Shown piece by piece: positions 1 through 21,264 of a DNA stretch of 21,658 nt. Below the pieces are notes generated by a model. It did no database searches. It was not told the DNA's origin and saw only the letters and a list, made by a program, of their open reading frames with translations. The DNA comes from a virus. How positions within the stretch are numbered: position 1 is the stretch's first letter; every line of letters begins with the position of its first letter. Where the stretch lies: positions 4,622 through 26,279 of the IMG/VR virus record IMGVR_UViG_3300001450_000232. One strand, given 5' to 3'. A program made the position numbers and the translations under genes.

Positions 1-2669
1 GGTCCTGAACCTGAGGCTATTTCTGTAGGTCTAGGTCCATATTGATCTACATCCCAATCAGTTCCATCAGCACTTTCTGATGCTGCTATTAATGCTGTTC
101 CTGCAGCTGCTTCTGAGGAATAATTATAAGTTCCACCAGGAGATATAATCACATTATGTTTAGGTGTTTTATGTGCTCCTTTAATACCTACATGACTATA
201 ATCACTAAATAAACAACTTCCAAAAGTAGTAAAAGGTTTTAAATAGGGTTCAAATGTTAAATATGCAGATGCATCATCTCCTGGGTTAGCATCTCCATAA
301 GGATTAGTTGCATATGCTTCTCCTTCAGCGAAACCATTAAAATCATTAGATGAAGCACTATACATTACAGTATTATTTGCTGTTATTGGGTCTATAAAAT
401 TTACTTTTCCTGGATATGCTGGAATTCCATCAAGTCCTGGTGTTGTTTTAGATGGGTGTTTTTCATACCAAGAATAAGCTTGTTTAAAACTTTTATCTGT
501 GTTTTTAGCCTCTTTAAAAGTAATAATATGTAAATCAGGTCTTTTAAAACATTCATCCATAAAGATTTTTAAACTTGCTGAAACATCTCCCGCCATACTT
601 TCAGATGCCCAAAATAAATCTTTTTGTCCCCCTTGTTCAAACCACCATCTTGCTGAAGGATTTTTAAAGTTTACTTTAAAAGTACCTGTTAGCATTCTAC
701 CAGACAGATGTCTTGAACTTAAATTTCCACTAAGATCTTTATATTGGGATAAACCATCTCCATACATGTCAATAGGAACAAATCTTGAATTATAATATCT
801 CATTCCCCCAGGAAAAGGATCCATACCCATATATCCTGCATATCCTGGACCTGTTTGCCAATTTCCATTTACTTGGGGACTAGGGTGTTCAGGGAATGTA
901 TTTTGGTTTTTTCCTATTCCCATACCTGCTGCTTTAAAACCCGTATGAAGATTAGCTGCTTCTCCTCCTCCCTCATCACTTGCTAAATAGAAAAAACCTC
1001 CTCCTTTTCCTGTTTCTCTAGACGCTGCGCCCCCCGTTCCTTCATATAAGACTGCAGTAGCTTTATCTTCTTTTTCTATTTCTTTCCAATTTTGAGCTAT
1101 TAAATTATCACGTAAAGTTGTGTAGATTGCTTTTTCTGTTGGGTGTCCATAAGGATTATCTGTAGCATGATAATCTGTTAACCACCTTCCATCTTCTCCA
1201 AAATGTATTCCTGTTCCTGGGAAATGTCCTTGAGGCATTAGATTTGAAGATTCTGTTGTGTAACTTGCAACTTCTGAAAAATATCCTTTATTCCAATGTA
1301 CATTATAACTTGTATCTAAGTTGTTAGGGTGTTCATAATCTAATAATTTAATTTTAAATTCAGAAGCCCAAGGAAAAGTTGATTGCATTAATTTTGCAAA
1401 TACTGCATCTTCTCCTTTTTTTCTTATTTCTTGTACAAAGAAAGAATCATCTTCAGAATTAAAAACTACTGCTTTATCTAATCTTACATAAGAAAAATCA
1501 GGACCTGGTCCTGGAAACACCTCGTTTTCTTGATATCCAAATATTGAATTACCTACAAAAATAGCATTTGAATAAGTTGCAATCACAGGATCTGTTCCAT
1601 GGCTAATATCCCCTTCTGATTTTCTTCTAGGTATTATAGCTGATCTAGTTATTTCAGTATCTGTCCAAGGATTAGCTAATACCGGTAAACCTGTCCCATC
1701 ATAATTATATGATCTTGAAACATAAGTTATTATAGTTTCTGATCCTAAAGGCCCATTATGTGATAAATGTTTAGGTGGACCATTAAGCCCTTTAGGGTCA
1801 ATTGGATTTAACATTATAGGTTTAGGAATATGAAAATCACCAAATCTTTCTATATGATCTTGTTTTTGAGTATAGGGATCTATTTTATAATGACGAGAAG
1901 GAGTTAAAGGAACATTATTTGAGATTTCAGAAAAAGGAGCATGGTTATGTAAATCTTTTCCATAATATTCAGATCCTGTATAAAATAAAGCTTCTTCAAA
2001 TGTAGATGTAGATGCATTTCTTTGTAAACATAATTTATCTATTTGACCCCCAACATTTACCCCATCTAGCGTATATCCTGAGGGGTAAACAATAGGGTTT
2101 GAAGCTGCATCGTCTACGTATAGTCCAATTCCCCCCTGTGAATTAGGAGAATGAGGATCCCACACCCAACTAGCGTGTTTTGGAGGGTATTTTTCCCACT
2201 CTTCTAAATCTTCATTAAATTCATTAATCCATCTTAAAGATTTAGCATATACATCATATAAAGTTGTTCCTATTCCACTAGCTGAATGTGGTTCAACAAC
2301 ATTTCCTATTGTTTCTTTAAAAGGACCTGTACATTTATAATAATTAAAACCTGCTCTTTCTCCAGATCTTATTATAAAATTCATTCCATCTATATAATTA
2401 TCTACATATCTATTTTGTAAGGGACCTAAATGTTTCCCATCTTCCATTTCATCTGTAAATTCATTGTAATATAATCCTATTAATTTAGTTCCTTCCCATC
2501 TAGGTCTTGTCCATCCTTTTGAAGATAATAAACTATCTTCAAAACATACATTAAAGAATCTACTACCTACAACAGGGGCTTCTATTGGGGGGTTAACTGA
2601 TGGTGCAGCAGGAACTGAACTTTCTCCCATAGGGGCACTATAGTTTCCTTTATTAAACGGTCCAGGCAT
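1..2669 (-). CDS. Large putative virion protein, 3' end outside window
   Basis: The frame is open from ATG at 2667-2669 to the window edge, giving 889 complete codons with no stop and no visible frameshift. The family is not recognised. The N-terminus is Pro/Ser-rich (MPGPFNKGNYSAPMGESSVP), followed by FFNVCFEDSLLSSKGWTRPR and WEGTKLIGLYYNE. That last segment resembles the W-x-x-PR-x-x-G-[ST]-K pattern I associate with phage virion proteins. The rest is rich in Gly, Tyr, Phe, Asn and Pro. There is a helical stretch near KAIYTTLRDNLIAQNWKEIE and a segment ARWWFEQGGQKDLFWASESM. There is no transmembrane segment or known enzymatic motif. No clear Shine-Dalgarno precedes the start. Its place after the baseplate genes suggests a fibre, spike or baseplate-peripheral protein, which is inference. 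Confidence 0.65.
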   Translation of the reverse strand, partial: MPGPFNKGNYSAPMGESSVPAAPSVNPPIEAPVVGSRFFNVCFEDSLLSSKGWTRPRWEGTKLIGLYYNEFTDEMEDGKHLGPLQNRYVDNYIDGMNFIIRSGERAGFNYYKCTGPFKETIGNVVEPHSASGIGTTLYDVYAKSLRWINEFNEDLEEWEKYPPKHASWVWDPHSPNSQGGIGLYVDDAASNPIVYPSGYTLDGVNVGGQIDKLCLQRNASTSTFEEALFYTGSEYYGKDLHNHAPFSEISNNVPLTPSRHYKIDPYTQKQDHIERFGDFHIPKPIMLNPIDPKGLNGPPKHLSHNGPLGSETIITYVSRSYNYDGTGLPVLANPWTDTEITRSAIIPRRKSEGDISHGTDPVIATYSNAIFVGNSIFGYQENEVFPGPGPDFSYVRLDKAVVFNSEDDSFFVQEIRKKGEDAVFAKLMQSTFPWASEFKIKLLDYEHPNNLDTSYNVHWNKGYFSEVASYTTESSNLMPQGHFPGTGIHFGEDGRWLTDYHATDNPYGHPTEKAIYTTLRDNLIAQNWKEIEKEDKATAVLYEGTGGAASRETGKGGGFFYLASDEGGGEAANLHTGFKAAGMGIGKNQNTFPEHPSPQVNGNWQTGPGYAGYMGMDPFPGGMRYYNSRFVPIDMYGDGLSQYKDLSGNLSSRHLSGRMLTGTFKVNFKNPSARWWFEQGGQKDLFWASESMAGDVSASLKIFMDECFKRPDLHIITFKEAKNTDKSFKQAYSWYEKHPSKTTPGLDGIPAYPGKVNFIDPITANNTVMYSASSNDFNGFAEGEAYATNPYGDANPGDDASAYLTFEPYLKPFTTFGSCLFSDYSHVGIKGAHKTPKHNVIISPGGTYNYSSEAAAGTALIAASESADGTDWDVDQYGPRPTEIASGSG

Positions 2670-2712
2670 TTTTTAATTTATTATACATATTAACTTATTT
2701 ATTATTTTATCA
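2670..2712 (-). promoter_or_regulatory. AT-rich gap with possible T4-type late promoter
   Basis: This is the only non-coding gap of any size in the window. On the minus strand AATAAATA occurs at 2696-2703, about 27 bases before the next ATG. It matches the NATAAATA late-promoter pattern described for T4-like cyanophages. A TATAAT lies at 2680-2685 but is too near the start for a usual leader. In sequence this AT-rich either match can occur by chance. I see no hairpin terminator. Confidence 0.25.
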
Positions 2713-2928
2713 TTAAGATTGACTACTATATACATTAGGTTCTGGAGTACAAGTTGCTGTAGATGTTTGAACAATCATATTACTTTGGGCTGCTGTAGGT
2801 CCTACATATTCCCATACTGATAGTGTTCCATTCCATTGCCACCCTATTGGAGGGTCAGATGAAACAGATGTTATACTACCCCACTCTCCGCGCCATATAT
2901 TAGGTTGTGTTATTATTTCAGTAGGCAT
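2713..2928 (-). CDS. Small Trp-rich protein, 71 residues
   Basis: This protein is not recognised. It is neutral to acidic, with four tryptophans (NIWRGEWGS, PPIGWQWNG, LSVWEYVG) in its first 42 residues and a Ser/Thr-rich tail with one cysteine. There is no signal peptide or membrane segment. The aromatic core suggests a small beta-fold, such as a decoration or fibre-tip-like element. The ATG is six bases after the giant gene's stop, and an AGGAAA element at 2942-2947 could act as a somewhat distant ribosome-binding site. A spurious frame is possible, but the compact fit between two virion genes on the same strand and the protein-like composition favour a real gene. Confidence 0.55.
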   Translation of the reverse strand: MPTEIITQPNIWRGEWGSITSVSSDPPIGWQWNGTLSVWEYVGPTAAQSNMIVQTSTATCTPEPNVYSSQS

Positions 2929-2934
2929 AATTTT

Positions 2935-5900
2935 TTAGTTTTTTCCTGTATTAGTTGCTGTTATATTGTAATTAGTTGTAAACTTACCACTACCTACAGG
3001 AGATACTGGTGATCTTGGTAATGTATTAAAAGTATTTATGAAAGGCACATTTCTTCCTATAGGCTGTGGTACATAATAATATGTTTTACTTGTTCTACAT
3101 CCATCAAATGTTAATATAGGATGCATATTATCCCATAAAGTTACATAATTAGTTTGACAACTACCAGGACTTCCATATTTACTTTGACTCATATGACGAT
3201 AATCACTTTGTGTAGCATGACCTTGTCCGTCTCTCCACATATTTTCATCTTCAACATCACTAATATTAATACAAGCATTATATACAGGTATATTTCCTTC
3301 TAAAGGAGGTGCAATTGGAATGATTGTTTCTCTTTCTAATCTTTCTATTGTAGGTATATTTCTTGCAAACTTTTGTCTTTCTAAGTAATGAGGTTCAATT
3401 AATAAACCTGTTTTTAGATTTGCTTTTGCAGGAACATGTTGTTCTACTATTTTAAATAAAGTATGGTCTAAATATTGTATTGTTTTTAAATAATCCCAGA
3501 AGTTTTGTCTATAGCTATTTAGGTATTTTTTAAAGTATGTTAATCTTAATTTTGTTAAATCTGGATAGTCTTCTCTTTTTTGGTGTTTTGGATCTCCAAT
3601 AAAATCATCCATTCTAAAAGCACCTAAAGTATAAACTATATCTTCATTTATTTCTTTTTGTGGTGAGAAAAATACTCCTAAATCATTATAATCTAAAGGT
3701 TGTCTATCCAAAGTTGAGTCTTCTGATTTAATATCAAAAGATAATATACTTCTATCTACTGAACCTGAATCTATTCTTACTTTTTCACTTGTAGTTGAAA
3801 TACCTACTGTGTCTGGAGTTAAATGTCTGTGAGTTTCATATACAGCTCCAAAAGATTGACTTACCATAATACTTCTTATACTTTGAGAAGGATAAAGATC
3901 AAATTCAGGATGGGGGTTGAAATTTTTAACATATCCTGTTCCATTATACTGTATATGTTGATTCATATATGAATCTGTTTCTATTTTATTATTACTTCCT
4001 AAAGGTAATCTTAAATATACATTATCCCAAGATGAACTAATAGTATTACCTGAATATTGAAAAGGGTCAAGTGCATGTTTTAATAGAGTATCATGAGTTA
4101 AATATTCTGTTGTGTGGAATTTTATTTCTTGGAATGATCCTGAATACGCTTCTGCTGCATGTGGGTGTCCTCCAAAATAAGCATGTGTAGCAGGAGTTGT
4201 ATTATCACAATTATTAGCTGCGTCTCCAAATGTTACAGCTCTTTCATATTCACTAAATAAGGCTGAAGATGTTGTATAAGTAACATTTCCTAAGAAATTT
4301 GATTGATAAGCTCCAAAGTCTACAAAATCAGCACTTCCTGATTTTCCTTCAGTTCCTATAAATATATTCCAAAAATCTCCATTAAATGCGGGAAATAACT
4401 CTGATGTAGCTCTTACGCTTCCATTAACTGTTAATGTTAAAGACCCCCATTGTTTATAATCATTTGAAGATGAAATATCAGCACCTACATAAGGTGTTAA
4501 TAATAAATGAGGATCATTTCCTGGGAAGTTTGGATTATATAAACTAAATAAATGTATATTAGTTTGTGCACTTCCTGTTGGACCACAACATAATTGAATA
4601 GGCGAAAGTCCTCTAGCATCATCTAATCTTCTAGGGTTTATTCTAAATTCTATTGTTTTCGAAGATGCTGTTACATGACAGTCTGTAATTATTTCTGGGG
4701 GTATTTCTGTTACTACTGTAGTATATGTAGGTAATACACACTCACATCTACTACTACTTATTGGTCCTGGTACAGGACATCCATATTCTATTGATGAAGA
4801 TGCAGGACAACATGTACATCCTTCAAATTCTATATCTCCTGGTAGTGGATCTCCTCCTGAAGCTATAGCTGCACATTTACAAGCTGCTCCATCTATTTGG
4901 CCTACTAAAGGAGCCATAATATTAGGGTTATTTGTTATAGGTGCTTGTATAATATCTCCAGGTATGTCTTCACATGTTGCTTTATATTCTGTGATATATA
5001 ATAATTTAGATGTGTCCATTCCTCTTTTAGTTGGATCAGGACACATATTATCTACTACATCCATAAAAGGAACTGTAGAGAAATCTGAAGTAACAACATT
5101 ACCATTTATTAACCAAGGGGTCCCAAAACCATTAATTGGATCCTCGTGTAATATCATTAAGGCATTTATTAATGATTCCCAATTAGCATATACTGCATTA
5201 GTCACTCCATTTGTTATCCCCTCTATCCAACTAGTACCATTAGTTTCATTTATATAGTCTGTGTTTACATAGATGTTTGAAGGTCTTACAAATATACCTT
5301 CTCCACTACAATTATTATTTCCTGGATTAAAAGGGGTTATTGGAGGTAAATTATTTCTAAGAACTGCAGGTTGTGCTTCAAGAGGACCACAGGTACAACC
5401 TCCATGATCTGTAGTATTATCATAACTAGTATTCACATAAAAATAACCAGAAATGTTAGTAGAATGACCATTAGTTGGTGGGAGTGCACATACTACATTT
5501 CCTTGTGCCTGTGTATTTATTGTAATTTGAGTACCATGAATCAACCAATCGCAAAAAGCAAAAGGATCAGCATTATCTTCAACTCCTGAGAAATAAGGAC
5601 TTTCTACTCCTCCCCCACCATTATTAAAAGGAAAGTATTGGAATATGTTTTCTGTAGTAATTATATCTTCTCCTCCTGTTTGGTATTGTGTATTAGCTAA
5701 TTCTACAGATGCTGTTGTTTCATGGTATGTTGAGGATAATGATAAATCAGTACCCGATGATACTACTGAACTTCCTGCCCAATTTTCGTCCCAATGTTCC
5801 CCTGTTAGTCCCATTTCTGATATTTTAGCATTTAAAAAATCAAACCAAGTAGTATAATAATTTATATCTGTTGGGTATTCATATACTGTTGATGATGGAT

Positions 5901-8900
5901 CTATTATTGAATTTTGATAAAATCCTTGAATAGTAAACAATCCATATTTATTTCTTAAAGCTGAATTTGGTCCTAAACATAATAAATTATTTACATCATA
6001 AGTTATACTTGTAGTTTCACTTACTTCATTATTAGATTCTAATTCAATACATTGGGGTGTTGCTGAAGAATCTAGATCAATATAAAATTCATATTCTTTG
6101 TTTGGGTGATTTGAATGGTATGAATGTAGATTGTGAGCATTTGATTTAGGTGAAGGAGCTGGAGAGATATCATTTTTATCTAGAAATCCTGGTCGTGTAT
6201 GGTCTCCAATTTGTGAATCACCATATTGTACATAATATAATTCATTTTCTATAACATTAAAGGGAGTTGCATAAGGAAAAGCAGGTTGTGCACTTTGTGA
6301 TCCTACAGTAGCCGCCATTATTGCTGCGTCTCCTCTTATTGCATTTATATCGTCAATTAAATTTTCCCAAGAATACCATGTTTTAGGTAGTGTGGTACCC
6401 ATACTTTGTCCTCCAGATGCTTCATCACAAGTACAATTATCAAGTGCTGCTGTTCCACCTCCTCCAGGTGGACATTGAGTTGATACCGTACATGAAGTTG
6501 TTGCAATTAAATCATAATAAGCATAATTTGTGTGTGTTTTTATATTTTGATGAGATACACCATTATTTGGAATGGATGTTAAATTACTACTCCAATCATG
6601 GTTAGGTTCTATTTTGCTTTCATAATTTTCAATATTATTAGTGTTTTGTGGGTTAGGTATCCATGGTCCTCCATTATTTGTACCATCAGTATAAAATTTA
6701 TTATAACCATAAAATGAATTATCATATCCATATAATCTAATGTAGTGAGGAGTAGCATATCCTCCTCCTGAGTTAGGAGCTCCTCCTGTTGGTCCTTTCA
6801 TTACAGCAGGGCATTCTATTATTTTAGAATCTATATGACGTCTTCCTTGTAAATCACCATCACCATCTCCATCCCAATCTAACCAATAATCTGGATTATT
6901 AATACCATAATCTACACCTTCCCATTTATCAGTTTGATAATCCATATCCGAAGAAAGAATTGTAGAATTATAAAAACCGGGTCCTCCATAAAGATCATTA
7001 GATTTATCACTATTAAATCCTATTCCTGAAAAATATTTTAAAATATTAGTACTTGAAGGCATTTGCCATGGTCGAGCTGATGGATTGTTTTGTCCATACC
7101 ATTCCCATGCTATTTTTAATTGTTCACGATGAGCTACTACAGAATCTATATATACGGATTGATTCCACTTTGATCCTCCATTCATCTGATTATCAGTATT
7201 TGGTTCCGCCCATGGACCTCTTAAAGAGGTAGAAGATCTACCACCAGTATTTGGAATGGCTTTATCGTATGAAGTATTACTATTACCATCAAAATTCCAT
7301 ATTATATCTGATTCTATTGGTAAATCTATTCTGTGTGTAGAATCTGCCTTTCCTGCATTTGCTTGGGTATAAAGATCTCCGGCGTGACTAGTAGAATATT
7401 GGTATGGTCCTCCATATCCCAAATGTACACTATTTTGAGTAGCTAATATACAATTTTCAGCACTACCATAATAAAGAATACCTGTTATATTAGGGTCTCC
7501 AAATTGAGCTGATGTAGAAGATCCTACTAAAGGTTCATTACTACTTATATCAATAGGAGATGAAGAAGGTGATAAAAATATAATTATTCTATACATAAAT
7601 TGAAGATCTGTATTAGGATAATTTGATGTATCTCCATAATGTGGATGAGAAAATAAATGTCCTACTACAGCTTCTAATCCTGAATTACCTACTTGGGTTA
7701 ATTCTTCTCCTACTTGAAAACTTCCTATTTTTTCGTTTGCATATACTGTATAAGAAAGTGCTTCTCCTAAACCACCATAATATCCTGCGTTAGGTTCTCC
7801 ATCACCATAACCCCCAATTAAATTTGGGAAAATATTACGACTTGGGTACATATAACTAGTTCCCTTAACATACCATATTCCTCCTGGTTCTAAAGCTATA
7901 GATGATGTTTTTACTGTTGTAGTGTATTCTGTAGCTAATTCAAATTTTAAAGTACTTATATCAGTTGTTTTTAAGGTTGGATCTATTGAAACATAATCCA
8001 TAAAATGATCAAGACTTGCAAAAGCTCCTTGTGGTAAAGGAATTATATGTTCTCCAAAAGGAGTTATAATAAAGGGTTCATTTATTGTAGCTCCTGATGT
8101 TCCTCCTGATATTTGTCCATAACTACTTAAAGTTCCTGCTGTTACTTCTAAAACTATTACTGGGGGGATTGCTATAAGTTGATTAGGTGTTAGTTCTTTT
8201 ATTGTTGCTATTAAACCTCCATTACCTGATTGAGTTACTGATTCTCCTATTTCAAATAAACCATCTTGAGTAGATCCTTCTACTTTAAATTGATCTACTG
8301 TTAGTGAACTTAAAACAGCACCACTAGTATCTCCTATAATGTCTAATTCTTTATCTAAAGTACCACTAGTTATATCTATTATAATTGCTATATCATCAGT
8401 TCCAGAATTTATTTCTATAATAGTAGCATTAAAACTTCCATTGTTAGGTTGATTTACTGGTTCATTTAAACTAAAAATATTTGTAAGAGAGGAACCTGTT
8501 ATTGTTATTTCTGTATTATCATTTATTATTAAAGTATCAGGACATTCTTCAGCACATAAACATTCGTCTGCTATTATATCTCCTCCTATTTCTGTGTCTG
8601 TCCAATCATCACTTAAAGATACTGAATTTCCTAAATTTATAGCTCTATCTATAAAACCTGTATATGTTGTAAAAGGTGTTTGGTTTGGATCTATTAAAGG
8701 ATCTATAAAGAAATTATCTACTGAAAAAGTATAATTGAATGTTCCTTTACCTAATCCATCATCTTCTTTACATGTTATTACTGATACACCTATATCACTT
8801 TCCCAATCAGCACATAATGTTTCTCCTACTACAATATCTATAGCATTCTCAAGTTCTACTTGTGTAAGTGGGTTTTCTTTAATAGATTCCTCAGTTACAT

Positions 8901-11900
8901 TCCATCCATATTGTTGTAAACCACCATATCCATATTGTGGGTCATATCCTACAGGATATTCTCCTTGTCCCGCCGTATATGCCCAAGTTGCTCCACAATA
9001 AGGGTTTACATTTACTCCAAAATAACCATTTAAAGCATCAAGATTTATAGCTCTATTAGCCCCTGGTAGTAAAATCTCATGGCTAGGTTCTAACATACCT
9101 GGATTTTCATTCACACTACCTGTTAATATTGCTCCTAACACATGTAGGGGGAAGGCTAATTGTGATTTGTAAAAATAAGTTGATCCATCTGCTCCTAGCA
9201 ATTTATTACCACCTGAACTTAATCCTACTGGAGCTGAAGGATACATCATATGAATCAAATCTCCTTGGTTTTCATATTCTGGCGCAGATCTATCTACAGT
9301 TTCTAAATATGTGTGAATATATAATTCATAATCACTTCTCCAAACTTCTTTTCCTTGTTTATTTCCTTCAATTTCTGCTTGAGTACAACTAATATCAGCA
9401 AATGTAGGAGTGATAGAGGATGCAAAACCTGTATATTGATCTTGGTCAGTTGTGTGTGCCCCTGACTCATCATAGAAATTAAAACATAAAGCCTTATCAG
9501 TTGCGTTTTCTAATGAAGGTGCTGGACCCCTCCATGCATTACCCTCTCCTGATAATCCTGAGGTTGTGTTAGGAGCATGATCATCATACAATCCTAAACC
9601 ATCATTAATTATATCTTTTAAAGGTACAGCTTGTCCTCCTATTGTTATAGTATTACCACCAGTCCATACCTCGTTTTTTATTGATATTGCTCGGCCATCT
9701 GATGTTGTGTCCATAGGAAGTACATACCAATTATGGCCTGAAGCTTGCTCAAGATCAGCACTTTCATCCCAAGGTTGGGCAGCTGATATAGTATCATTAG
9801 TACTATAACACGTACTAATAGAACCTGATCCTTGTGCTGAAGGAGTAAAACCATCTGCTTCAAAAGCATTTTGTAAATAGTTTCCTATATTTGAAAAAGG
9901 TAATCTAGCTATATCTAACCATCTTTCATGAGAAGAAATCATATGATAAACTTGTCCTGTAAATGCAGCTCCTTGTTGAACTACCCAATTTTCTACAGTT
10001 TGCATTGCTGATGTAGCCTGGCTAACAGTCATAGAAGTACCATCATAAAAACAATATATTGATGCATCTATAGGACATTGTTCTTGGAGTATCTGATTTA
10101 GTGAGTCTTCTGAGATATTAAATTTAAGAGTATTTATATCTATATCTTGAAGATTACCTAAAGTTGGATCAGATGTACTAATATCAGAATAATAATCCAT
10201 AAACTCTTGTATAGGAGTTATTTGAGATATTGCATCTCCTTCAAAAGCCCCATTACTTGTTGCTGGGTTTAAAATTAATGTTTTACTATCACAAGGTCCT
10301 TCTGCTTCTGTTAATATTAAAGCTGTTGTTAAAAGAGAAAACCTAACACTATTTGCATCTTCTTCTACATTATGACCATCTGCATTTAATTGTTGTAAAA
10401 ATGATTGGTAATTAATATATAAAGTATCATCAAAAGGTATGACATTTGGATCTTTTTTAAAGCCCATAACCCTTCTTATATATCCATTGTTTGGTCCCAA
10501 ACAAGGACTTTCTACTGTTTCGTTATTTGGTAAGGGTTCAAAAGTTTCATAAAAATATTCATCAATATTATACCCATAAAATCCATTAGAATATGTAGTA
10601 AAATAATCTAAAAATTCAGTTGAATTTTGGAATGTTCCATTCCCTATAGGATTTTGTATAAGACCACAACCTGTTGGAGTTACTGTTGTTGTTGTTGTTG
10701 TTTTTTCACAAAAACCAGTACATTCATTGTAAAAGTATCCGTCATTTTCATCACATGTATTTGTTGATGTATTAAATTCTCCTCCCCCAACTGAAGTTGT
10801 GCAAAGACAATAATCTGTGTATACATAAATATTTTGTCCTTCTCCAAATACCTCAGATTCTACATTAGCAAAAGTACGCTGTGGTCCAGTAAGAGTAATT
10901 CCTAATATAGATTCTATATCTGTTATTAAAGCTTCCCAATTATAATAAGTATTTCCATCTATAGAAGCATAAGTAGAGTTGGTTAAAGCATCTATCGTAA
11001 TATGAGTTATAAATAAGTTTTCTGCACTTCTATTCCCATCTATACAAACATCTGGTGTTCCTGATGTTGTGGTATCACCATATAAAAAGGTATCAAAATT
11101 TAATGTTGGGTTGTTTGTTGAGATATGAGACATTTGCATTAAAGCTGCACTTGCTCCTACACCTATTACTCCTGTATCTGTTTTACCTGTACAAGTATCA
11201 GTATTTGAAGATCCAATACCTTCAGTGCTAAATATTATATTTTGAGTGTATAAATCTTCTAAATTAGTATAAGTTGTTCCATCAATAGTTACCCCTCCAC
11301 TATCTACATTACTAAAAATAGTTTCATCTATAAATGTGTTTGAAGGAAAAGGACCAACTATATCACACCCAAAAGATGCTATTTGTCCTGAATTCCATCC
11401 TTCCATATTAATTACATGGTCTCCTGCTGTTAGGTTTATTTTATATACCCACCAATTATTAAAGTTTTCTCCTGCATCTGAATTTTTTTCTACTACTATT
11501 TCACCATCAACAAGAAATCTAATTCTATTATCCCCTCCTAGTCCTATTAAATATTCTCCATCTGCAGGAACTGTTATACATTCAGAAAATCCTATCCATT
11601 GGTTTAATGGATTCATAAGTTGAGTATTACCACCACTAGGATTATAAGTATCTGTATCATCCCATACCCCTATTTGGTTTAATCTTCCATCACTTGTATT
11701 TTGAGAAGGATTTCCAAAATACGTATTTGTAATATTACCATGGAAGTTTGATGAAAGTGGATCTGCAAAAAATTTAGCTCCATTTTTACCATAAACTGTT
11801 GATTGAGCTCCATTTTGTAGGGTAGATGTTGAGTTTACTGTTGGTGGTACTTGTAGTAATTGTGTTGATGTAGATGTTCCACCACCTGCCCCAGCATTTG

Positions 11901-14900
11901 TTCCCCCTGTAAATTCCCGTTTAAGTGGAGATAATTGAGTATAAATACAAGGACCACCACTAGCATTTTGTTGTAATGTAGATGTTCCTGACATTTGAGT
12001 ATTTCCACTTGTTCCTACTTGGTTTTGTGATATTTCTACTCTATTTGGTCCTGTACTATAGTAAGCGTTAAATTCTGAATTTTGATTTATATCATTTGCT
12101 AAGTTTTGTATTTGTGTTAAAACAGTATTACCATTTATTGTAAAAGTATGTAATGTTCCATTAATATCTTGTAATATTAATGTTTTTCCAATTAAATCAT
12201 TAGTACAAGTATCAATTGTACCATCTGTCCCTCCTGTAAGACCATAAGTACTAGTATTACCAGGAGAAGCATCTACACAATTACGTCCAGGTGTTTCAGG
12301 ACTTCCTCCAGTAATATAACTCATAAGAGTACCTGTTATTGGAGTATTAGCTGCTAATGATTCATCTGTTGTTGATATTAAACATAGTATATTTTTTCCC
12401 CCTTGATCATCATATACAGCATTAAAGTTATTATTAGCATTTATATCATTTGCTAAATTCTGGGCTTGATCTATATTACTACTTCCTGATATTGTAAATG
12501 TATGTGTTGTTCCAGATGAATCTTCTAATATTACTGTTAAACCATTATATATACTAACAAAACTATCATCATTACACCACGATACACCCCCTGTTGCTGG
12601 ATTACCTCCTTCTCCACCTGAACTTGGAAAATATAATGGGGCATCTGCTTCTTTTCCTGGTCCATCTAATACAGTAAAATCATCACACCCACAAGAAGAT
12701 GAAGGTGGAAATTCTGTAAGTACATCTGGAGTTATTAATTCTGAAAATATAGTATCTGTATTTACTCCAGGTATTGCAGGATTTTCATATCCTGCAGTAT
12801 TTAATTCATTTATAAAATTATTATATATTTTATAACAATTTCCTGTTATTCCTCCTGTGTGTTCACAATTTGAACTTAAATAATTTATTACTTCTAATCC
12901 TGTTAAGTAGGCAGATGCATTAATACTTGGACTACTCCAATATATATTTCCACCTCCATCTTCAGAACTATTTAAAACATTTATATCTCCATTATATGTG
13001 TTTAGATTCTCATCCCATATAAAAGCTCCTTCTGCACCAGGTATTGCTAATAATAAGTCATTAGTAATATTAGAAGTTCCTGAATCCCCCATAAAGAGAT
13101 AATCAATTAATTGTTCTGCTGTTAAGTTTATATCTACATTTGCGTTTGATACGTGTAAAGTGAAATTTGCATTACATGAGCCTCCTTTAGCGTTTGAGTG
13201 TTTTACACATGTTGGGTCTACTTCAAAACATTCTAAAACAAATAATCCATAATCATTAACCCCTGTACATTGTTTTTCTCCTAAAAATAAAGGAGTTTTT
13301 GTAGGATTTACTGATTCAAAACTAAAAGTAGATATATCGTGACTACAATACCCATTTGTACAATCAGTTACAAAATCTAAAAACCCCTCTTCATCTTGAA
13401 ATAAACCATATGTTTCTATTCCATTAATTACCGTTGTTCCAGATCCATCAAATTTTATACCATTTTGTATTAAAATTTTACTATCACATGAATTTGTTCC
13501 TGGAACTACAGTTGTAACTGAAGTAGAATTATTAGCTCCTCCTCCTGCGTCTTCAGGCCCCCCCGATCCAAAATCATGTTTTGTTAAAAATTCTACTTGT
13601 GGGAATTGTTGAGGATTACCACAAGCAGGAGTAGTCATATCTTCAAAGAAAGTACCTTCTATAGGTGTATTACCTTCTATTCCCATTAAATGTTGTTCTA
13701 GTTTTATTACTAGATCTAAATTGTATTCATAATGATTATAATGGAATAAATCATTAGGTACTTCTAAAGAAGCACTAAATAAAGGATGTGCATCTATACA
13801 AGCTGTTATACTTTGAGCTGTTTCTAAACCACTTTGTGCATGTATTTCAAATTCAATACCTGATGAAAATATATGAGTAGACCCATCAGTTGCTTCTAAT
13901 TCTATTGTTTTTGGAAAAGGTTGATCAAAATTTTCACCAATAGTACCCATTGAACATACTATTTGTCCCTTTGCCTTACCAGGTTGACTTACAGATACTC
14001 CTGTGAATGCAGGATCATCAACATACCAAGGAGATTCTATAAAAAATCCATTTGCTCCAGAGTCTCCTTGTAAAGTATATGAGAATTTTTCATAATTAAA
14101 AGTTTTATATGTTGTTTCATCTGTTGTAGGTCCTCCATATTCTTTTATGTTTAATATAGTTTCTGGAACTCCATAACAACTCATTAATGCTCTAATTCCT
14201 CTTTCTGTTCCTTTAGTTTTTAAAAGAAAAGGTAAATTATGATATAATCTTTTCCATACTTCTTTAGTTATATCTCCCTTAGGTATTGAACTTCCTCCAT
14301 GATCACATTTAACAACGTCAGCTGTTATCATTTCTTGACCTGGAGGAGCTTCATATGTTCCAAAAGCACCTGTTTTTGTTTTAGAAGTTCCTATTATATA
14401 TTCAAATAATTCTTCATTTTCAAATTGATCAAAAGCTTCTATTCCTAAACTTTGTAATGCAGTAAATACTAAATCTTTTGATATTCCTTCAGTAAAGGAA
14501 TTGTTTGCATTTCTTATTTTACTTACATGATCTATATATATCCATATTTGGTCAAAATATTGACCAATCATATTAGTAAAAGTTACATATTGTTCATTTT
14601 CTTCTCTTTCAAGAATATGTTGAGGTAATGTTTTTTGTAAATTATAACCATTATCTCTATCAAATCTAGAAGCTGATAATATTTGTCCTCCATATTCTGT
14701 GCTATATTCATCTAGATTACCAAACCATTCTACAGCTTCATCTGATGTTGTAGGATACAAGTTAAAAGGTTTAACAAATACATCACAATCATCTAATCCT
14801 ACTACCATAAATGAAGAAGAGGGTACAAGAGCAACTGATCCTGTTAATTGTAGGTTTCCTATACCAAAATCAGGAATCTTAGGCCAAGCATAAGGATGGT

Positions 14901-15993
14901 GTTCATAATATAAGAATTTTTCATAATTATCAAAACTACTAATTAATTTAGCTCTTTTTGATTCTATGGTATTTCTATTATTTATAACAGCAGTTGAAGT
15001 TGATATAGTTCCTGTTATTGTTCCTATGTCTTCTATTTGGGCTTCGTATAATTCTACTAAACTTAATTTATATTTAAAATTTCTTAATCTTTCTTCTGCA
15101 CTACCAAAATGAGTAAAATTTTCAAAATGATATCCTGTTTCTAAAGAACCAGTACCTGTTTTTGTAAAATCTACTGATAGTTTTACACTTTCACTTAAAT
15201 GACTTAATACATTATATAATGAAGCTGAATTAGCTCCTTCTAAAAAACTATTATATGTTTTAAAAGCTGAAGGAACAGAATCATTTAAACGTGTATCTAT
15301 TCTAAAGTTGGGTCCTTTTATAGCTATATTTGGATCATCAGGAGCAGCAGTTCCTAAATCTATTACAAATTCTAATGGATCTATAACATCTTCACATATT
15401 CTTAAATTTGCGTTGTCTTCTACATCTTCTGGAAGGGGTTCATATAATTTTATTAATACACATTTTTCTTTTAAACTATATGCTATATTAATTCCTAATA
15501 TATTTTTATTACCCCCAAAATTAAGTATAAAATCTCTTTCAAAACCAGAAGCTCCAATTTCACTCATGTATCTTTCTACCATTGATTGAATTTGCTCATC
15601 ATCATAAGATTCAGAATATAATTTTAATTCTGTTCTAGATGGTGAGATTTCTTTAATGTAAAAGAATTTAGCAAAAGTATCTAATATTTTTTTTCTTTGT
15701 AAATTATACACACAAGAATACTGACCTTGGTTAAATCCTAATTCTTGAAGTTTTTTAGTAGGATCAACAAATATAGTATTTGTTAAATTTGGAGTTTGGG
15801 TATCTAAAATTTCTGGATATTGCCAATCCTCATAATCATCTATAGAATATAATAAAGTCCCCCCCATATCAAATATATGAAATTCTATATAGTCATTTAT
15901 TTTACCAAATTTTCTTTGTTGGGTTTTAGAAACAATCTTACCTTTGTCTCTAACATCTATTCTTGAAATATTATTTATTTTTATATTCTCCAT
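2935..15993 (-). CDS. Giant 4352-residue modular virion protein with nested insert
   Basis: One uninterrupted frame with a scaffold and a long insert. Scaffold: an N-terminal region (1-630) contains KFLYYEHHPYAWPK (359-372), a helical region near 455-535, and the block KTKGTERGIRALMSCYGVPE (592-611) leading to EYGG. The first strand of a LamG-like jelly-roll is at about 631-657. The rest of that fold runs from about 3773 to 3968 (ASSKTIEFRINP, WGSLTLTVNGSV, FNGDFWNIFIGTE, YSGSFQEIKFHTTEYL). The conserved tail is NFWDYLKTIQYLDHTLFKIV with GLLIEPHYLERQKF (4164-4209). Between them, about 660-3770 is a mosaic of repeated modules, a carbohydrate-binding-like jelly-roll (about 1398-1550), Gly/Tyr/Trp/Asn-rich stretches and eight C-x-C motifs. 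There is no signal peptide, membrane segment or recognisable enzyme. The start overlaps the previous stop (TAATG). The likely role is a baseplate-attached fibre or adhesin contacting the host surface, which is inference. It could also be a composite fibre produced by repeated recombination. The reading frame is certain; the function is not. Confidence 0.75.
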   Translation of the reverse strand: MENIKINNISRIDVRDKGKIVSKTQQRKFGKINDYIEFHIFDMGGTLLYSIDDYEDWQYPEILDTQTPNLTNTIFVDPTKKLQELGFNQGQYSCVYNLQRKKILDTFAKFFYIKEISPSRTELKLYSESYDDEQIQSMVERYMSEIGASGFERDFILNFGGNKNILGINIAYSLKEKCVLIKLYEPLPEDVEDNANLRICEDVIDPLEFVIDLGTAAPDDPNIAIKGPNFRIDTRLNDSVPSAFKTYNSFLEGANSASLYNVLSHLSESVKLSVDFTKTGTGSLETGYHFENFTHFGSAEERLRNFKYKLSLVELYEAQIEDIGTITGTISTSTAVINNRNTIESKRAKLISSFDNYEKFLYYEHHPYAWPKIPDFGIGNLQLTGSVALVPSSSFMVVGLDDCDVFVKPFNLYPTTSDEAVEWFGNLDEYSTEYGGQILSASRFDRDNGYNLQKTLPQHILEREENEQYVTFTNMIGQYFDQIWIYIDHVSKIRNANNSFTEGISKDLVFTALQSLGIEAFDQFENEELFEYIIGTSKTKTGAFGTYEAPPGQEMITADVVKCDHGGSSIPKGDITKEVWKRLYHNLPFLLKTKGTERGIRALMSCYGVPETILNIKEYGGPTTDETTYKTFNYEKFSYTLQGDSGANGFFIESPWYVDDPAFTGVSVSQPGKAKGQIVCSMGTIGENFDQPFPKTIELEATDGSTHIFSSGIEFEIHAQSGLETAQSITACIDAHPLFSASLEVPNDLFHYNHYEYNLDLVIKLEQHLMGIEGNTPIEGTFFEDMTTPACGNPQQFPQVEFLTKHDFGSGGPEDAGGGANNSTSVTTVVPGTNSCDSKILIQNGIKFDGSGTTVINGIETYGLFQDEEGFLDFVTDCTNGYCSHDISTFSFESVNPTKTPLFLGEKQCTGVNDYGLFVLECFEVDPTCVKHSNAKGGSCNANFTLHVSNANVDINLTAEQLIDYLFMGDSGTSNITNDLLLAIPGAEGAFIWDENLNTYNGDINVLNSSEDGGGNIYWSSPSINASAYLTGLEVINYLSSNCEHTGGITGNCYKIYNNFINELNTAGYENPAIPGVNTDTIFSELITPDVLTEFPPSSSCGCDDFTVLDGPGKEADAPLYFPSSGGEGGNPATGGVSWCNDDSFVSIYNGLTVILEDSSGTTHTFTISGSSNIDQAQNLANDINANNNFNAVYDDQGGKNILCLISTTDESLAANTPITGTLMSYITGGSPETPGRNCVDASPGNTSTYGLTGGTDGTIDTCTNDLIGKTLILQDINGTLHTFTINGNTVLTQIQNLANDINQNSEFNAYYSTGPNRVEISQNQVGTSGNTQMSGTSTLQQNASGGPCIYTQLSPLKREFTGGTNAGAGGGTSTSTQLLQVPPTVNSTSTLQNGAQSTVYGKNGAKFFADPLSSNFHGNITNTYFGNPSQNTSDGRLNQIGVWDDTDTYNPSGGNTQLMNPLNQWIGFSECITVPADGEYLIGLGGDNRIRFLVDGEIVVEKNSDAGENFNNWWVYKINLTAGDHVINMEGWNSGQIASFGCDIVGPFPSNTFIDETIFSNVDSGGVTIDGTTYTNLEDLYTQNIIFSTEGIGSSNTDTCTGKTDTGVIGVGASAALMQMSHISTNNPTLNFDTFLYGDTTTSGTPDVCIDGNRSAENLFITHITIDALTNSTYASIDGNTYYNWEALITDIESILGITLTGPQRTFANVESEVFGEGQNIYVYTDYCLCTTSVGGGEFNTSTNTCDENDGYFYNECTGFCEKTTTTTTVTPTGCGLIQNPIGNGTFQNSTEFLDYFTTYSNGFYGYNIDEYFYETFEPLPNNETVESPCLGPNNGYIRRVMGFKKDPNVIPFDDTLYINYQSFLQQLNADGHNVEEDANSVRFSLLTTALILTEAEGPCDSKTLILNPATSNGAFEGDAISQITPIQEFMDYYSDISTSDPTLGNLQDIDINTLKFNISEDSLNQILQEQCPIDASIYCFYDGTSMTVSQATSAMQTVENWVVQQGAAFTGQVYHMISSHERWLDIARLPFSNIGNYLQNAFEADGFTPSAQGSGSISTCYSTNDTISAAQPWDESADLEQASGHNWYVLPMDTTSDGRAISIKNEVWTGGNTITIGGQAVPLKDIINDGLGLYDDHAPNTTSGLSGEGNAWRGPAPSLENATDKALCFNFYDESGAHTTDQDQYTGFASSITPTFADISCTQAEIEGNKQGKEVWRSDYELYIHTYLETVDRSAPEYENQGDLIHMMYPSAPVGLSSGGNKLLGADGSTYFYKSQLAFPLHVLGAILTGSVNENPGMLEPSHEILLPGANRAINLDALNGYFGVNVNPYCGATWAYTAGQGEYPVGYDPQYGYGGLQQYGWNVTEESIKENPLTQVELENAIDIVVGETLCADWESDIGVSVITCKEDDGLGKGTFNYTFSVDNFFIDPLIDPNQTPFTTYTGFIDRAINLGNSVSLSDDWTDTEIGGDIIADECLCAEECPDTLIINDNTEITITGSSLTNIFSLNEPVNQPNNGSFNATIIEINSGTDDIAIIIDITSGTLDKELDIIGDTSGAVLSSLTVDQFKVEGSTQDGLFEIGESVTQSGNGGLIATIKELTPNQLIAIPPVIVLEVTAGTLSSYGQISGGTSGATINEPFIITPFGEHIIPLPQGAFASLDHFMDYVSIDPTLKTTDISTLKFELATEYTTTVKTSSIALEPGGIWYVKGTSYMYPSRNIFPNLIGGYGDGEPNAGYYGGLGEALSYTVYANEKIGSFQVGEELTQVGNSGLEAVVGHLFSHPHYGDTSNYPNTDLQFMYRIIIFLSPSSSPIDISSNEPLVGSSTSAQFGDPNITGILYYGSAENCILATQNSVHLGYGGPYQYSTSHAGDLYTQANAGKADSTHRIDLPIESDIIWNFDGNSNTSYDKAIPNTGGRSSTSLRGPWAEPNTDNQMNGGSKWNQSVYIDSVVAHREQLKIAWEWYGQNNPSARPWQMPSSTNILKYFSGIGFNSDKSNDLYGGPGFYNSTILSSDMDYQTDKWEGVDYGINNPDYWLDWDGDGDGDLQGRRHIDSKIIECPAVMKGPTGGAPNSGGGYATPHYIRLYGYDNSFYGYNKFYTDGTNNGGPWIPNPQNTNNIENYESKIEPNHDWSSNLTSIPNNGVSHQNIKTHTNYAYYDLIATTSCTVSTQCPPGGGGTAALDNCTCDEASGGQSMGTTLPKTWYSWENLIDDINAIRGDAAIMAATVGSQSAQPAFPYATPFNVIENELYYVQYGDSQIGDHTRPGFLDKNDISPAPSPKSNAHNLHSYHSNHPNKEYEFYIDLDSSATPQCIELESNNEVSETTSITYDVNNLLCLGPNSALRNKYGLFTIQGFYQNSIIDPSSTVYEYPTDINYYTTWFDFLNAKISEMGLTGEHWDENWAGSSVVSSGTDLSLSSTYHETTASVELANTQYQTGGEDIITTENIFQYFPFNNGGGGVESPYFSGVEDNADPFAFCDWLIHGTQITINTQAQGNVVCALPPTNGHSTNISGYFYVNTSYDNTTDHGGCTCGPLEAQPAVLRNNLPPITPFNPGNNNCSGEGIFVRPSNIYVNTDYINETNGTSWIEGITNGVTNAVYANWESLINALMILHEDPINGFGTPWLINGNVVTSDFSTVPFMDVVDNMCPDPTKRGMDTSKLLYITEYKATCEDIPGDIIQAPITNNPNIMAPLVGQIDGAACKCAAIASGGDPLPGDIEFEGCTCCPASSSIEYGCPVPGPISSSRCECVLPTYTTVVTEIPPEIITDCHVTASSKTIEFRINPRRLDDARGLSPIQLCCGPTGSAQTNIHLFSLYNPNFPGNDPHLLLTPYVGADISSSNDYKQWGSLTLTVNGSVRATSELFPAFNGDFWNIFIGTEGKSGSADFVDFGAYQSNFLGNVTYTTSSALFSEYERAVTFGDAANNCDNTTPATHAYFGGHPHAAEAYSGSFQEIKFHTTEYLTHDTLLKHALDPFQYSGNTISSSWDNVYLRLPLGSNNKIETDSYMNQHIQYNGTGYVKNFNPHPEFDLYPSQSIRSIMVSQSFGAVYETHRHLTPDTVGISTTSEKVRIDSGSVDRSILSFDIKSEDSTLDRQPLDYNDLGVFFSPQKEINEDIVYTLGAFRMDDFIGDPKHQKREDYPDLTKLRLTYFKKYLNSYRQNFWDYLKTIQYLDHTLFKIVEQHVPAKANLKTGLLIEPHYLERQKFARNIPTIERLERETIIPIAPPLEGNIPVYNACINISDVEDENMWRDGQGHATQSDYRHMSQSKYGSPGSCQTNYVTLWDNMHPILTFDGCRTSKTYYYVPQPIGRNVPFINTFNTLPRSPVSPVGSGKFTTNYNITATNTGKN
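3367..3504 (-). other. Conserved C-terminal scaffold motif (residues 4164-4209)
   Basis: NFWDYLKTIQYLDHTLFKIV, VPAKANLKTGLLIEPHYLER and QKF form a compact amphipathic block after the LamG-like domain. I associate this block with the same group of phage structural proteins as the N-terminal KTKGTERG motif. It indicates that both ends of the giant reading frame belong to one ancestral protein. Confidence 0.5.
4090..4677 (-). other. Remainder of split LamG-like domain (residues 3773-3968)
   Basis: The strand order fits a LamG-like jelly-roll: ASSKTIEFRINP, HLFSLYNPN, HLLLTPYVGADI, YKQWGSLTLTVNGSV, GDFWNIFIGTEG, YQSNFLGNVTYTTSSALFSE, then YSGSFQEIKFHTTEYLTHD. Such folds in phage virion proteins often bind sugars or act as trimeric decorations. 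The domain is complete only if the opening strand at residues 631-657 is added back. Confidence 0.55.
4738..4893 (-). other. Cysteine cluster at the exit of the insert (residues 3701-3752)
   Basis: Eight cysteines lie within 52 residues: C3705-x-C3707, C3726-x-C3728-C3729, C3739 and C3750-x-C3752. They sit immediately before the LamG-like remainder, which adds C3772 and C3802-C3803. The linkers are rich in Gly, Pro and Ser. The pattern would suit a disulfide- or metal-stabilised stalk. It matches no zinc finger I recognise. Confidence 0.5.
6853..6879 (-). other. Asp/Gly loop DWDGDGDGD (residues 3039-3047)
   Basis: Five aspartates alternate with Trp or Gly (D3039, D3041, D3043, D3045, D3047). 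This resembles the D-x-D-x-D-G calcium loops of EF-hand-like and thrombospondin type 3 repeats. The twelfth-position acid expected in a canonical EF-hand is absent, so calcium binding is only possible. Confidence 0.35.
7498..8487 (-). repeat. Module family E, three copies (F-x-x-G-E...Q-x-G-N-x-G)
   Basis: The copies are at 8308-8487 (residues 2503-2562), 8083-8262 (2578-2637) and 7498-7725 (2757-2832). The shared core is FSLNEPVNQPNNGSFNATI, FEIGESVTQSGNGGLIATI and FQVGEELTQVGNSGLEAVV. Each is followed by hydrophobic strands and an I-x-G-x-T/S-S-x-A closing turn (IIGDTSGAV, ISGGTSGAT, LVGSSTSAQ). Each copy is about 60 residues and looks like a small beta-domain. Copies 1 and 2 are directly tandem, while copy 3 follows a separate 120-residue stretch containing one F module. 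Confidence 0.75.
10684..10701 (-). repeat. In-frame ACA trinucleotide tract (poly-Thr, residues 1765-1770)
   Basis: Six ACA-type codons encode a run of six threonines (EKTTTTTTVTPTG) between a cysteine-rich segment and an F module. It looks like a flexible linker. The tract is prone to slippage in whole codons, so its length may vary between related phages. Confidence 0.6.
11341..11802 (-). other. Carbohydrate-binding-like jelly-roll in the insert (residues 1398-1551)
   Basis: Residues 1398-1551 read as one beta-sandwich: KNGAKFFADPLSSNFHGNIT near the start, then CITVPADGEYLIGLGGDNR, IRFLVDGEIVVEKN, NNWWVYKINLTAGDHVINME and GWNSGQIASFGCDIVGPF. The order (strand, GDNRIRFLVDG turn, TAGDHVINMEGWN turn) resembles PA14-like and related sugar-binding jelly-rolls, in which a distorted ligand is held near the G-D-N loop. 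The exact family is unproven. Confidence 0.45.
11968..13923 (-). repeat. Module family D, three diverged copies
   Basis: The copies are at 13639-13923 (residues 691-785), 12316-12567 (1143-1226) and 11968-12210 (1262-1342). The shared pattern is T-I/L-x-L-x-D/E-x-x-G-T/S-x-H-x-F, then Q-x-L-A-N-D-I-N with F-N-A, then G-N-T-x-I/M-x-G-T. Copies 2 and 3 are close (THTFTISG versus LHTFTING; QNLANDINANNNFNA versus QNLANDINQNSEFNA). Copy 1 is older and carries an extra loop (about 748-762). Related modules are, to my knowledge, common in marine-phage virion proteins. The repeat is clear in protein but not obvious in DNA. Confidence 0.75.
14014..14103 (-). other. First strand of split LamG-like domain (residues 631-660)
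   Basis: TFNYEKFSYTLQGDSGANGF followed by FIESPW is the kind of opening strand that starts a LamG/concanavalin-like jelly-roll after the EYGG motif. The expected next strand (SKTIEFRI) does not follow here. It appears only at residue 3778, about 3,120 residues later. Confidence 0.5.
14131..14220 (-). other. Conserved scaffold block KTKGTERGIRA...EYGG (residues 592-621)
   Basis: This block (KTKGTERGIRALMSCYGVPE, then LNIKEYGG) is the strongest anchor for the scaffold. I recognise its pattern from structural proteins of uncultured tailed phages, where it directly precedes a LamG-like domain. That recognition is from memory and untested. It fixes where the scaffold should continue and so where the insert begins. 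Confidence 0.5.
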
Positions 15994-18935: not shown

Positions 18936-20831
18936 TTAGTATTGTGTTATTTTTCCTTGAATATCTGAATTAGGGTATCTTAATTCAAATATACTTGGAT
19001 CTAGCGAAGGATAAATTATTCCCTTTATAGTAGCATCATGTAAGTCATATTTGTAAGGTGAATATCCTAAATCTTGTCCTGCTATGTTTTCAAGTTTTAC
19101 TGTAGGGACTGATTGTACTCCTTCTACTGCTCCTATAGTATTATATATTTCAGAAATTATTATTGGTTGGTTTATTTGCCATTTATCTATTAGAAAGAAT
19201 TGTTTTAATTCTTTAATACAGTTCATTAATACTTCTTGATTATTAAAGTTTTTAAATGCAATAATTTCAAAATCTACACTAATATTAATAGGAAATGCAT
19301 CTTTAATATTAACAGCGTCTGTTAACATCCTATGTTGTTCTAAATAAGTTGCTAAATTAGTTTTAGTAGCTTCATTTAATGTTGTTATTTGTTTATTTTT
19401 ATTATAACCTAAAGTGTATAAATTTAACGCCATAGGATTAGGTATTCTTCCTGGACTAGAAACTAAAGGAGAAATTTGATCATCTTGTGTTATATAAGCT
19501 TTAGCTACCCTACCAAATTTAGCAGGCATAGATAAAGTTCTAATTAAATAATCTTCTTTAGTTACTGTTCTATTTTGAGAAGAAAAAGAAGCCATAGCAT
19601 TTTGTCTTATATCTTCAATAGTATCTCCTGATCCTCCTCCGGTTGCTGGTTGGGGGTTTGTAACTGCTATAGAATCTACAGAATATTGTTGAAGACCTGA
19701 ATCTAAATTTGGTGCTGTTTTTATATTTACTGTTCCTAATTCTTCTATAGTATTAGCAGATACATTTGCTTTTATACCAAAACTATTGCATCTATAATTT
19801 ACTGTTAGTTGTGTGTTTGTAGGAACTATTCCATAAGTTCCCGTATATAAAAAGTTAGAAGGATCATAGGCAAAATCTAATTTTGATCTTCCATCTTTAA
19901 TCATTAAACCAATATTATCTGGGTTTGGTATAATTTCTTCAGTTACTGAACCTGCTTCTCCTGCTCCAAATTGTATATTTAATACTTTATCTGATGTTAG
20001 TCGTGTTATAAATCTTCTTGGTACTTTTTTAACTTTTAAAAGATAAGGAGAAGTTTCATTATACCCATGTAATGCTGGGTCTTTAGAAGCTATATTTTCA
20101 ACTGCTTCAAAAACGGTATCTTGAGCTAAATAAGGTACTTCAGTCCATGTTTCACCATTAGAATCTACTATTGAATCTATTCCTATTATATATGGTTCAT
20201 TTATTTGAAATGATCTAAATTTTTCGTAATCGTTTGCAGAAAAACTAATTGTTTTAATTTCTCCAGAAAATGCCTTTACTTTCTTTTTAAGAAGATAATA
20301 TTCTGGTTTATCAGTACTGTTATTAATAGAATATATTGTTGTTTCTAATGGTTCAAATTCTGTGTCTAGTTTAAAATTAACATCTTTTTCTATTATAAAT
20401 TCAGGTCCTTCATTTGATATAAAAGATGATCCTTCTGCAATAGTAACAGCATATTTCATATCTGGTAAATAGCTATCATTAGGATCAGAAGGAACTAAAT
20501 GGTATATTTCTAATTCTACGGCTGAGGTATTTGTTGTTTTAGGTCTATACCCTAAAGAATAGGCTAAATTAAATAAATTTTCTTTTTCTTTAGCTAATAA
20601 TAAAAAGTTTTCTTGTAATTGTGTATTTTGATAATATGATAAAACGTCTCCTACATACGCCGCCATTTCCATAAACATCATTCCTGGAGATGCATCACTA
20701 AAATCATTATGAGTATCTGGAAAATATACTTTAGAAAACTCAACTAATTGACTTTTAAAATCATTAAATGTTTTATTAAGGTATTTTATATCTTTATCTC
20801 TTACTGTATTTGATGTTTTTGAAAAAGCCAT
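18936..20831 (-). CDS. 6: Baseplate wedge protein gp6 (baseplate J-like)
   Basis: This 631-residue protein compares with 660 for T4 gp6. Residues 43-98 have the N-terminal signature of the baseplate-J family: DFSDASPGMMFMEMAAYVGD, then SYYQNTQLQENFL, then LAYSLGYRPK. Residues 396-430 carry the second hallmark, ATGGGSGDTIEDIRQNA with NRTVTKEDY. In the C-terminal half, IKDAFPINISVDFEI (509-523) and the INQPIIISEIYNTIGAVEGV segment (553-572) match the usual late part of gp6 proteins. gp6 dimers link the wedges into the inner baseplate ring and, with gp25 and gp53, trigger sheath contraction. No convincing Shine-Dalgarno precedes its ATG. It begins one base after the gp25 stop, so translation probably depends on ribosomes arriving from gp25. 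Its own stop is followed by the same TAAAATG junction. Confidence 0.92.
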   Translation of the reverse strand: MAFSKTSNTVRDKDIKYLNKTFNDFKSQLVEFSKVYFPDTHNDFSDASPGMMFMEMAAYVGDVLSYYQNTQLQENFLLLAKEKENLFNLAYSLGYRPKTTNTSAVELEIYHLVPSDPNDSYLPDMKYAVTIAEGSSFISNEGPEFIIEKDVNFKLDTEFEPLETTIYSINNSTDKPEYYLLKKKVKAFSGEIKTISFSANDYEKFRSFQINEPYIIGIDSIVDSNGETWTEVPYLAQDTVFEAVENIASKDPALHGYNETSPYLLKVKKVPRRFITRLTSDKVLNIQFGAGEAGSVTEEIIPNPDNIGLMIKDGRSKLDFAYDPSNFLYTGTYGIVPTNTQLTVNYRCNSFGIKANVSANTIEELGTVNIKTAPNLDSGLQQYSVDSIAVTNPQPATGGGSGDTIEDIRQNAMASFSSQNRTVTKEDYLIRTLSMPAKFGRVAKAYITQDDQISPLVSSPGRIPNPMALNLYTLGYNKNKQITTLNEATKTNLATYLEQHRMLTDAVNIKDAFPINISVDFEIIAFKNFNNQEVLMNCIKELKQFFLIDKWQINQPIIISEIYNTIGAVEGVQSVPTVKLENIAGQDLGYSPYKYDLHDATIKGIIYPSLDPSIFELRYPNSDIQGKITQY

Positions 20832-20832
20832 T

Positions 20833-21264
20833 TTAGTTTAAATTTAATTCTATTGCATCCACTGAGTCTTCTCTTTTAATTTTATAAGCTATATGAATTT
20901 TAAATGTATGAATTTCAGGAGTAGTTTCCATACCTTGTCTTCCCATAACTAAATTTGTTAATTCAATTGCAGGAATATATCTTACTATTCCATCTTGTAT
21001 TTTGTTTGTTAATTGTTCTCTGTCAATTACCTGTTCAAATAGAAATTTTCTTATTCCTATTCCAAATCTAGGATTCATGAATCTTTCACCAGGGTTTGTT
21101 AATAATAAATTAAGTAAATTACTTTTGATTTGAGCCTTAGTTGTATACGAAGAATTAAATACAGCTTCACCATCAAATGGTAAAGTAACACCAATTGCTA
21201 CTCGTTCATTTTCTGGCATGTCTAAGGGATGTATCCCTCTATTTAATCTTTGTATAATAGCCAT
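20833..21264 (-). CDS. 25: Baseplate wedge protein gp25 (GPW/gp25 family)
   Basis: This 143-residue protein is close to T4 gp25 in length (132). Residues 56-77 carry the family signature, TNPGERFMNPRFG followed by IRKFLFE. It is the GER-x-x-x-P-x-FG...LFE pattern shared by gp25, P2 gpW and the type VI secretion protein TssE. A region starting near residue 82 (REQLTNKIQDGIVRYIPAIE) fits the helix and strand that follow in the family. In contractile tails gp25 joins the baseplate wedge to the inner ring where the sheath starts. The start is supported by a good AGGAAG site. gp6 follows after one base (TAAAATG). The neighbourhood of gp25 then gp6 is typical of T4-like and other contractile-tail loci. 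An old label of lysozyme-like for this family is not supported by any catalytic motif. Confidence 0.93.
   Translation of the reverse strand: MAIIQRLNRGIHPLDMPENERVAIGVTLPFDGEAVFNSSYTTKAQIKSNLLNLLLTNPGERFMNPRFGIGIRKFLFEQVIDREQLTNKIQDGIVRYIPAIELTNLVMGRQGMETTPEIHTFKIHIAYKIKREDSVDAIELNLN

Follow-up and report, generated by a model that had tools for sequence, protein, structure and literature searches.

The window, by which we mean the whole stretch of DNA that was analyzed, comprises 21,658 nt of the IMG/VR record IMGVR_UViG_3300001450_000232 (positions 4,622 to 26,279). Its minus strand carries one co-oriented tail gene cluster (Table 1). A gp25-like and a gp6-like baseplate wedge protein are followed downstream by two uncharacterized proteins (381 and 598 aa), by P0001, a structural protein of 4,352 aa, and by a protein of 1,073 aa that extends beyond the end of the window. 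The open frame of P0001, noticed in a first-pass annotation made from the letters alone, is real, and most of it consists of a single insert within an otherwise ordinary protein.

Flavobacterium phage immuto and Microcystis phage Mel-JY01 have a similar gene order, with a protein of 1,265 aa (QQO92079.1) or 1,336 aa (WWT39511.1) instead of the one of 4,352 aa. Both proteins are annotated as 'hypothetical protein', and their N-terminal cores are around 30% identical to that of P0001. They stand in the same order after the gp25 and gp6 homologs as in the window, but have no giant insert. In the immuto homolog, no LamG segment is recognizable at this place, and the one in Mel-JY01 could not be aligned by profile. 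A search for the host among genome contigs found no relative.

Table 1. Features of the tail gene cluster and of P0001 in window coordinates, listed from the start of the minus strand.
Feature	Position	Strand	Remark
gp25-like baseplate wedge protein, upstream neighbor	20833..21264	-	phrog_261, E 3e-17
gp6-like baseplate wedge protein, upstream neighbor	18936..20831	-	phrog_219, E 3.8e-18
P0001, whole gene (4,352 aa), structural protein with giant insert	2935..15993	-	open frame
N-terminal core, residues 1-630: beta-rich domain, then helical region	14104..15993	-	conserved in at least 556 viral loci
KR...KGT motif region, residues ~575-625	14119..14271	-	in register with P2 gpI motif, not significant
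First LamG-like strands, residues 631-657, YEKFSYTLQG...FIESPW	14023..14103	-	
Insert, residues ~658-3773 (~3,115 aa), loop before KTIEFRI	4675..14022	-	
Module A, copy 1	13648..13953	-	iterated profile
Module B, copy 1	13240..13413	-	iterated profile
Module A, copy 2	12325..12603	-	iterated profile
Module A, copy 3	11980..12258	-	iterated profile
PA14 domain	11359..11721	-	just under Pfam cut-off here
Module B, copy 2	10474..10644	-	iterated profile
Module B, copy 3	10048..10209	-	iterated profile
Block X, ~390 aa, unnamed fold	8734..9906	-	52-54% identical in L019/L021
Module D, copy 1	8308..8517	-	iterated profile
Module D, copy 2	8080..8289	-	iterated profile
Module B, copy 4	7912..8034	-	iterated profile
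Module D, copy 3, partial	7651..7725	-	iterated profile
Cys-rich exit segment, residues 3726-3772	4678..4818	-	similar in L031, L021, L019
Rest of LamG-like sandwich, residues 3774 to ~4058	3820..4674	-	
C-terminal tail of core	2938..3819	-	

One core family with an empty or a filled loop

The two ends of P0001 had been read as parts of one ordinary protein of about 1,240 residues, and both indeed match one family of proteins of ~1,100-1,550 aa. In blastp searches, the match of the N-terminal end stops at residue 656 and that of the C-terminal end restarts at 3774, positions that lie few residues apart in the homologs. In our first viral contig set the two parts adjoin, mostly in proteins of ~1,100-1,350 aa. 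The joining loop reads FIKTNW-SSSLTDALSAS-AKTVEFQIK in the alignment of the insertless homolog L030, where P0001 has FIESPW (residues 651-656) and SSKTIEFRI (with KTIEF at 3779), 3,121 residues apart. Homologs without the insert, which the first-pass annotation had suggested looking for, thus exist in large numbers, with the two ends adjacent. Using profile anchors on both sides, we found the loop empty in 78 distinct marine viral contigs (86 table rows minus 8 contigs fetched twice), with a length of 2-28 residues, most often 11. It is filled in four complete members of one clade, with 2,693, 2,736, 2,914, and 3,121 residues. This count leaves out L011, L012, seven contigs with displaced anchors, and incomplete contigs. 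Among the anchored family members, no loop of intermediate size was found. The one candidate for an intermediate insert, L070, had on reading a loop of only ~30 residues, its extra length being elsewhere.

A search of IMG/VR with the core alignment retrieved relatives in at least 556 viral loci, and the N-terminal core matches six of 50,697 phage records. By sequence, the core has no significant family match in Pfam, PHROGs, or the PDB. Marine viromes are rich in this family, for which public libraries have no annotation. It offers a natural comparison of proteins with and without a giant insertion at a single residue.

The window and the contig 3300025168_000137 differ by one mismatch in 17,645 bp (99.994% identity) across both junctions, although the two records may share reads. 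The insert lies at the same residue in relatives that are 63-80% identical, including other species, from the metagenomes 3300020421, 3300025138, 3300017764, 3300017773, and 3300030060. The third-position GC is uniform at 0.09-0.11 (0.087 in the N-terminal part, 0.105 in the insert, 0.100 in the C-terminal part). Since the same junctions recur in independent assemblies, we reject a chimera, and an assembly artifact joining two genes is very unlikely.

When the opening part of the insert served as the query, all matches fell within the insert clade. In a tree of the N-terminal core, rooted by midpoint only, the rows bearing the insert form one group (support 80/97), and 84% of the bootstrap trees need one change. 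The rows outside this group, among them the distant immuto, Mel-JY01, and L011, are without a giant insert, which is most simply explained by a single gain. To judge from these sequences, the loop was probably filled once, in one marine clade.

To describe the fold around the site, we relied on an AlphaFold2 model of the insertless L030 (1,111 aa, 21 rows), which has a mean pLDDT of 51 and most of its helical region below 50. Residues 590-877 are modeled as a beta-sandwich (pLDDT roughly 50-89), with strands 590-601 and 611-614 before the site, a loop at 615-627, and a strand at 628-636 after it. Foldseek matched this model in the PDB to agrin LG3 (1pz7; E 1.9e-6, TM 0.57 by target) and to the LG domain of SHBG, pentraxins, CBM40, and CBA120 tailspike 2 (range E 1.8e-6 to 2e-4). 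In BFVD it matched uncharacterized homologs and LamG-like phage proteins. The Pfam LamG profile had no sequence match in P0001 or in 21 homologs. The domain bearing the insert is thus predicted to share the fold of solved LamG/ConA-like lectins, which, unlike P0001, have no 3,100-residue chain within one loop. The first-pass annotation had placed the insert in a LamG-like loop after the first strand. The strands flanking the site do fall in the same sandwich segment of the model, not in separate folds, but two predicted strands, not one, precede the insert. Confidence in the model is only moderate: the first two strands have a pLDDT of 60-66 and the aligned ranges of the matches are not given, so we regard the LamG-like nesting as well supported, not proven.

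Make-up and evolution of the insert

The repeats that the same annotation had reported are above chance: iterated profiles reach E-values down to 1e-38 for module A, 1e-26 for B, and 1e-31 for D. They delineate A repeats (three), B repeats (four), and D repeats (three), next to which the insert has a PA14 domain and large blocks without a name. At the DNA level there are no tandem repeats. PA14 (PF07691) scores above the gathering threshold in L031, L021, and L019, whereas the copy in the window has 22.2 bits for a cut-off of 24. No other named domain in the insert was significant, and tblastn of the insert against the 50,697 phage records gave no match. The architecture differs among the members that carry the insert, modules having been gained, lost, and reordered. 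An AlphaFold model of insert residues 1405-2450 had a pLDDT of 33 and was therefore left out of the fold search.

The insert is under purifying selection. Its dN/dS is 0.43-0.51 in all four pairs compared, values that would be inflated by misalignment of shuffled modules. The N-terminal core has 0.17-0.29 in three of the four pairs and 0.46 in the pair L021/L019, where insert and N-terminal core share the same evolutionary rate; the C-terminal core has 0.13-0.14.

Two further stretches of the insert are conserved. Its exit (window 4678-4818, minus strand) has seven cysteines in 47 residues, largely kept across the clade, which could serve disulfide or metal binding. Residues ~1982-2040 (window 9870-10050, minus strand; IYCFYDGTSM...FTGQVYH...ERWLD) are also conserved in the clade; reading this stretch, for its DGTSM motif, as the beginning of a von Willebrand A domain was a guess that we dropped.

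Identity of the core and possible role of the insert

To our knowledge, no phage protein with so large a nested insertion has been described, nor any member of the gp7/gpI/TssG group with an insert of several thousand residues. Targeted searches of the open-access literature found no phage protein with a nested insertion this large.

The core gene lies downstream of homologs of gp25 (BW1) and gp6 (BW2), with two genes between, which is the position of a BW3 gene. After these homologs, T4 has gp7 and P2 has gpI. The most conserved stretch of the core, KRLYHNLPFLLKTKGTERGIRALMSCYG...LNIKEYGG, is in register with KR...HRxKGT...LG...EW of gpI, a correspondence that has no hhalign significance. T4 gp7, P2 gpI, and TssG (BW3) resemble the core in gene place, and the KGT region of gpI can be aligned with it in register, but none matches it significantly in sequence. 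Profile comparisons with T4 gp7 and P2 gpI, full-length included, revealed no significant similarity (hhalign probability below 5%); hence, we call the core gp7/gpI-like by position and motif, and not a member of that family. The TIGR02242 profile (phage tail domain) has a weak match in the immuto homolog (E 0.012). Altogether, kinship with gp7/gpI is suggestive, not significant.

The receptor-binding proteins of contractile phages are attached to BW3 (gp7/gpI/PA0619), at the periphery of the baseplate (PMC10811340), and (gp6)2-gp7 is the counterpart of (TssF)2-TssG (PMC6300606). We lean, with slightly better than even confidence, towards reading the insert as a built-in arm that binds host glycans and is mounted on a gp7/gpI-type (BW3) baseplate wedge core. 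The core would be a contractile-tail baseplate protein, most likely a wedge protein of this type at the edge of the baseplate, which would normally carry receptor-binding proteins. It would include a lectin-like (LamG) jelly roll folding around the insert, in which one short loop is filled by 2,700-3,100 residues of repeated modules, including PA14, a carbohydrate-binding type. The chain of small domains would leave and re-enter the LamG loop, projecting as an arm from each wedge, with about six copies per baseplate. By binding glycans on the surface of the host, these arms may provide an additional receptor-binding structure.

The core might instead be a tail structural protein unrelated to gp7/gpI, its KGT motif being coincidental and the arm sitting elsewhere on the tail. 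The lack of a significant profile match to T4 gp7 or P2 gpI fits this reading, which is compatible with the function of an arm, but the register of the motif, the placement of the gene behind gp25 and gp6, and the weak match to TIGR02242 make it somewhat unlikely. The main rival concerns the function, and we judge it unlikely: the insert would serve as a structural collar or as a docking platform, keeping separate tail fibers in place or bracing neighboring wedges. It has a precedent in the cyanophage A-1(L), where a domain of ~100 residues inserted in the wedge protein gp31 contacts and grips the long tail fiber (PMC10966104), and the downstream genes, including one for a putatively LamG-containing protein, keep the same order. 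The A-1(L) domain is ~30 times smaller and belongs to a different wedge protein. Against this rival, the 3,100 aa of the insert, its PA14 domain, and its mostly faster evolution fit surface recognition better. Domain insertion into tail proteins is already known, and the giant insert extends it. Finally, the insert could be removed after translation, by an intein-like process or by proteolysis, leaving the ordinary form of 1,240 aa as the mature protein. The junction does close neatly to the insertless sequence, but Pfam and PHROGs revealed no intein or protease family, the ends of the insert, on reading, lack intein splice-site residues, and the module content is conserved, with shuffling, all of which makes such a removal very improbable.

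Inserts at other sites and in a second tail protein

Other members of the core family carry inserts of 71-326 residues at other places. In L009, L014, and L070 they fall within the LamG segment, in seven members directly behind it, and further ones lie in the C-terminal tail. The loop filled in the insert clade takes around ten times as many residues as these. None of the inserts at other loops had a significant match to the profiles of modules A, B, D, or PA14, and we thus do not equate them with the same modules. The member L009 (7454-14206) reaches 2,251 aa without the giant insert; its LamG segment is interrupted by separate insertions of ~130 and ~330 residues.

The downstream protein that we read as LamG-like has 666 aa in the genome of the window and 898 aa in the close relative L002 (69-74% identical). 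The extra length comes largely from a stretch with a copy of module A (E ~2e-29), placed after the strand DFSINFNLK (L002 7573-10266). Hence, two different tail proteins have loops that hold the same type of module in at least one case, and its absence from the 666-aa relative indicates a fairly recent gain or loss. We would tentatively go further, at somewhat less than even confidence, and propose that a wedge protein was turned into a receptor-binding arm: ~3,000 lectin-like residues in one loop of a lectin domain, covalently joined with no separate fiber attachment, and with modules moving between the LamG loops of different tail proteins. These findings point to loops where phages may test new surface modules, which bears on the evolution of host range.

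The protein following the giant gene (L054 4069-7290, minus strand; window 3-2669) is of similar length here (1,073 aa) and in L002 (1,076 aa). Its relatives in insertless phages, which match mainly at ~350-515 and ~970-1040, often have only 300-630 aa, so this protein also seems expanded in the insert clade. Most of the gap between the two genes is filled by an open frame of 71 aa (window 2713-2928, minus strand; MPTEIITQPNIWRGEWGSITSV...).
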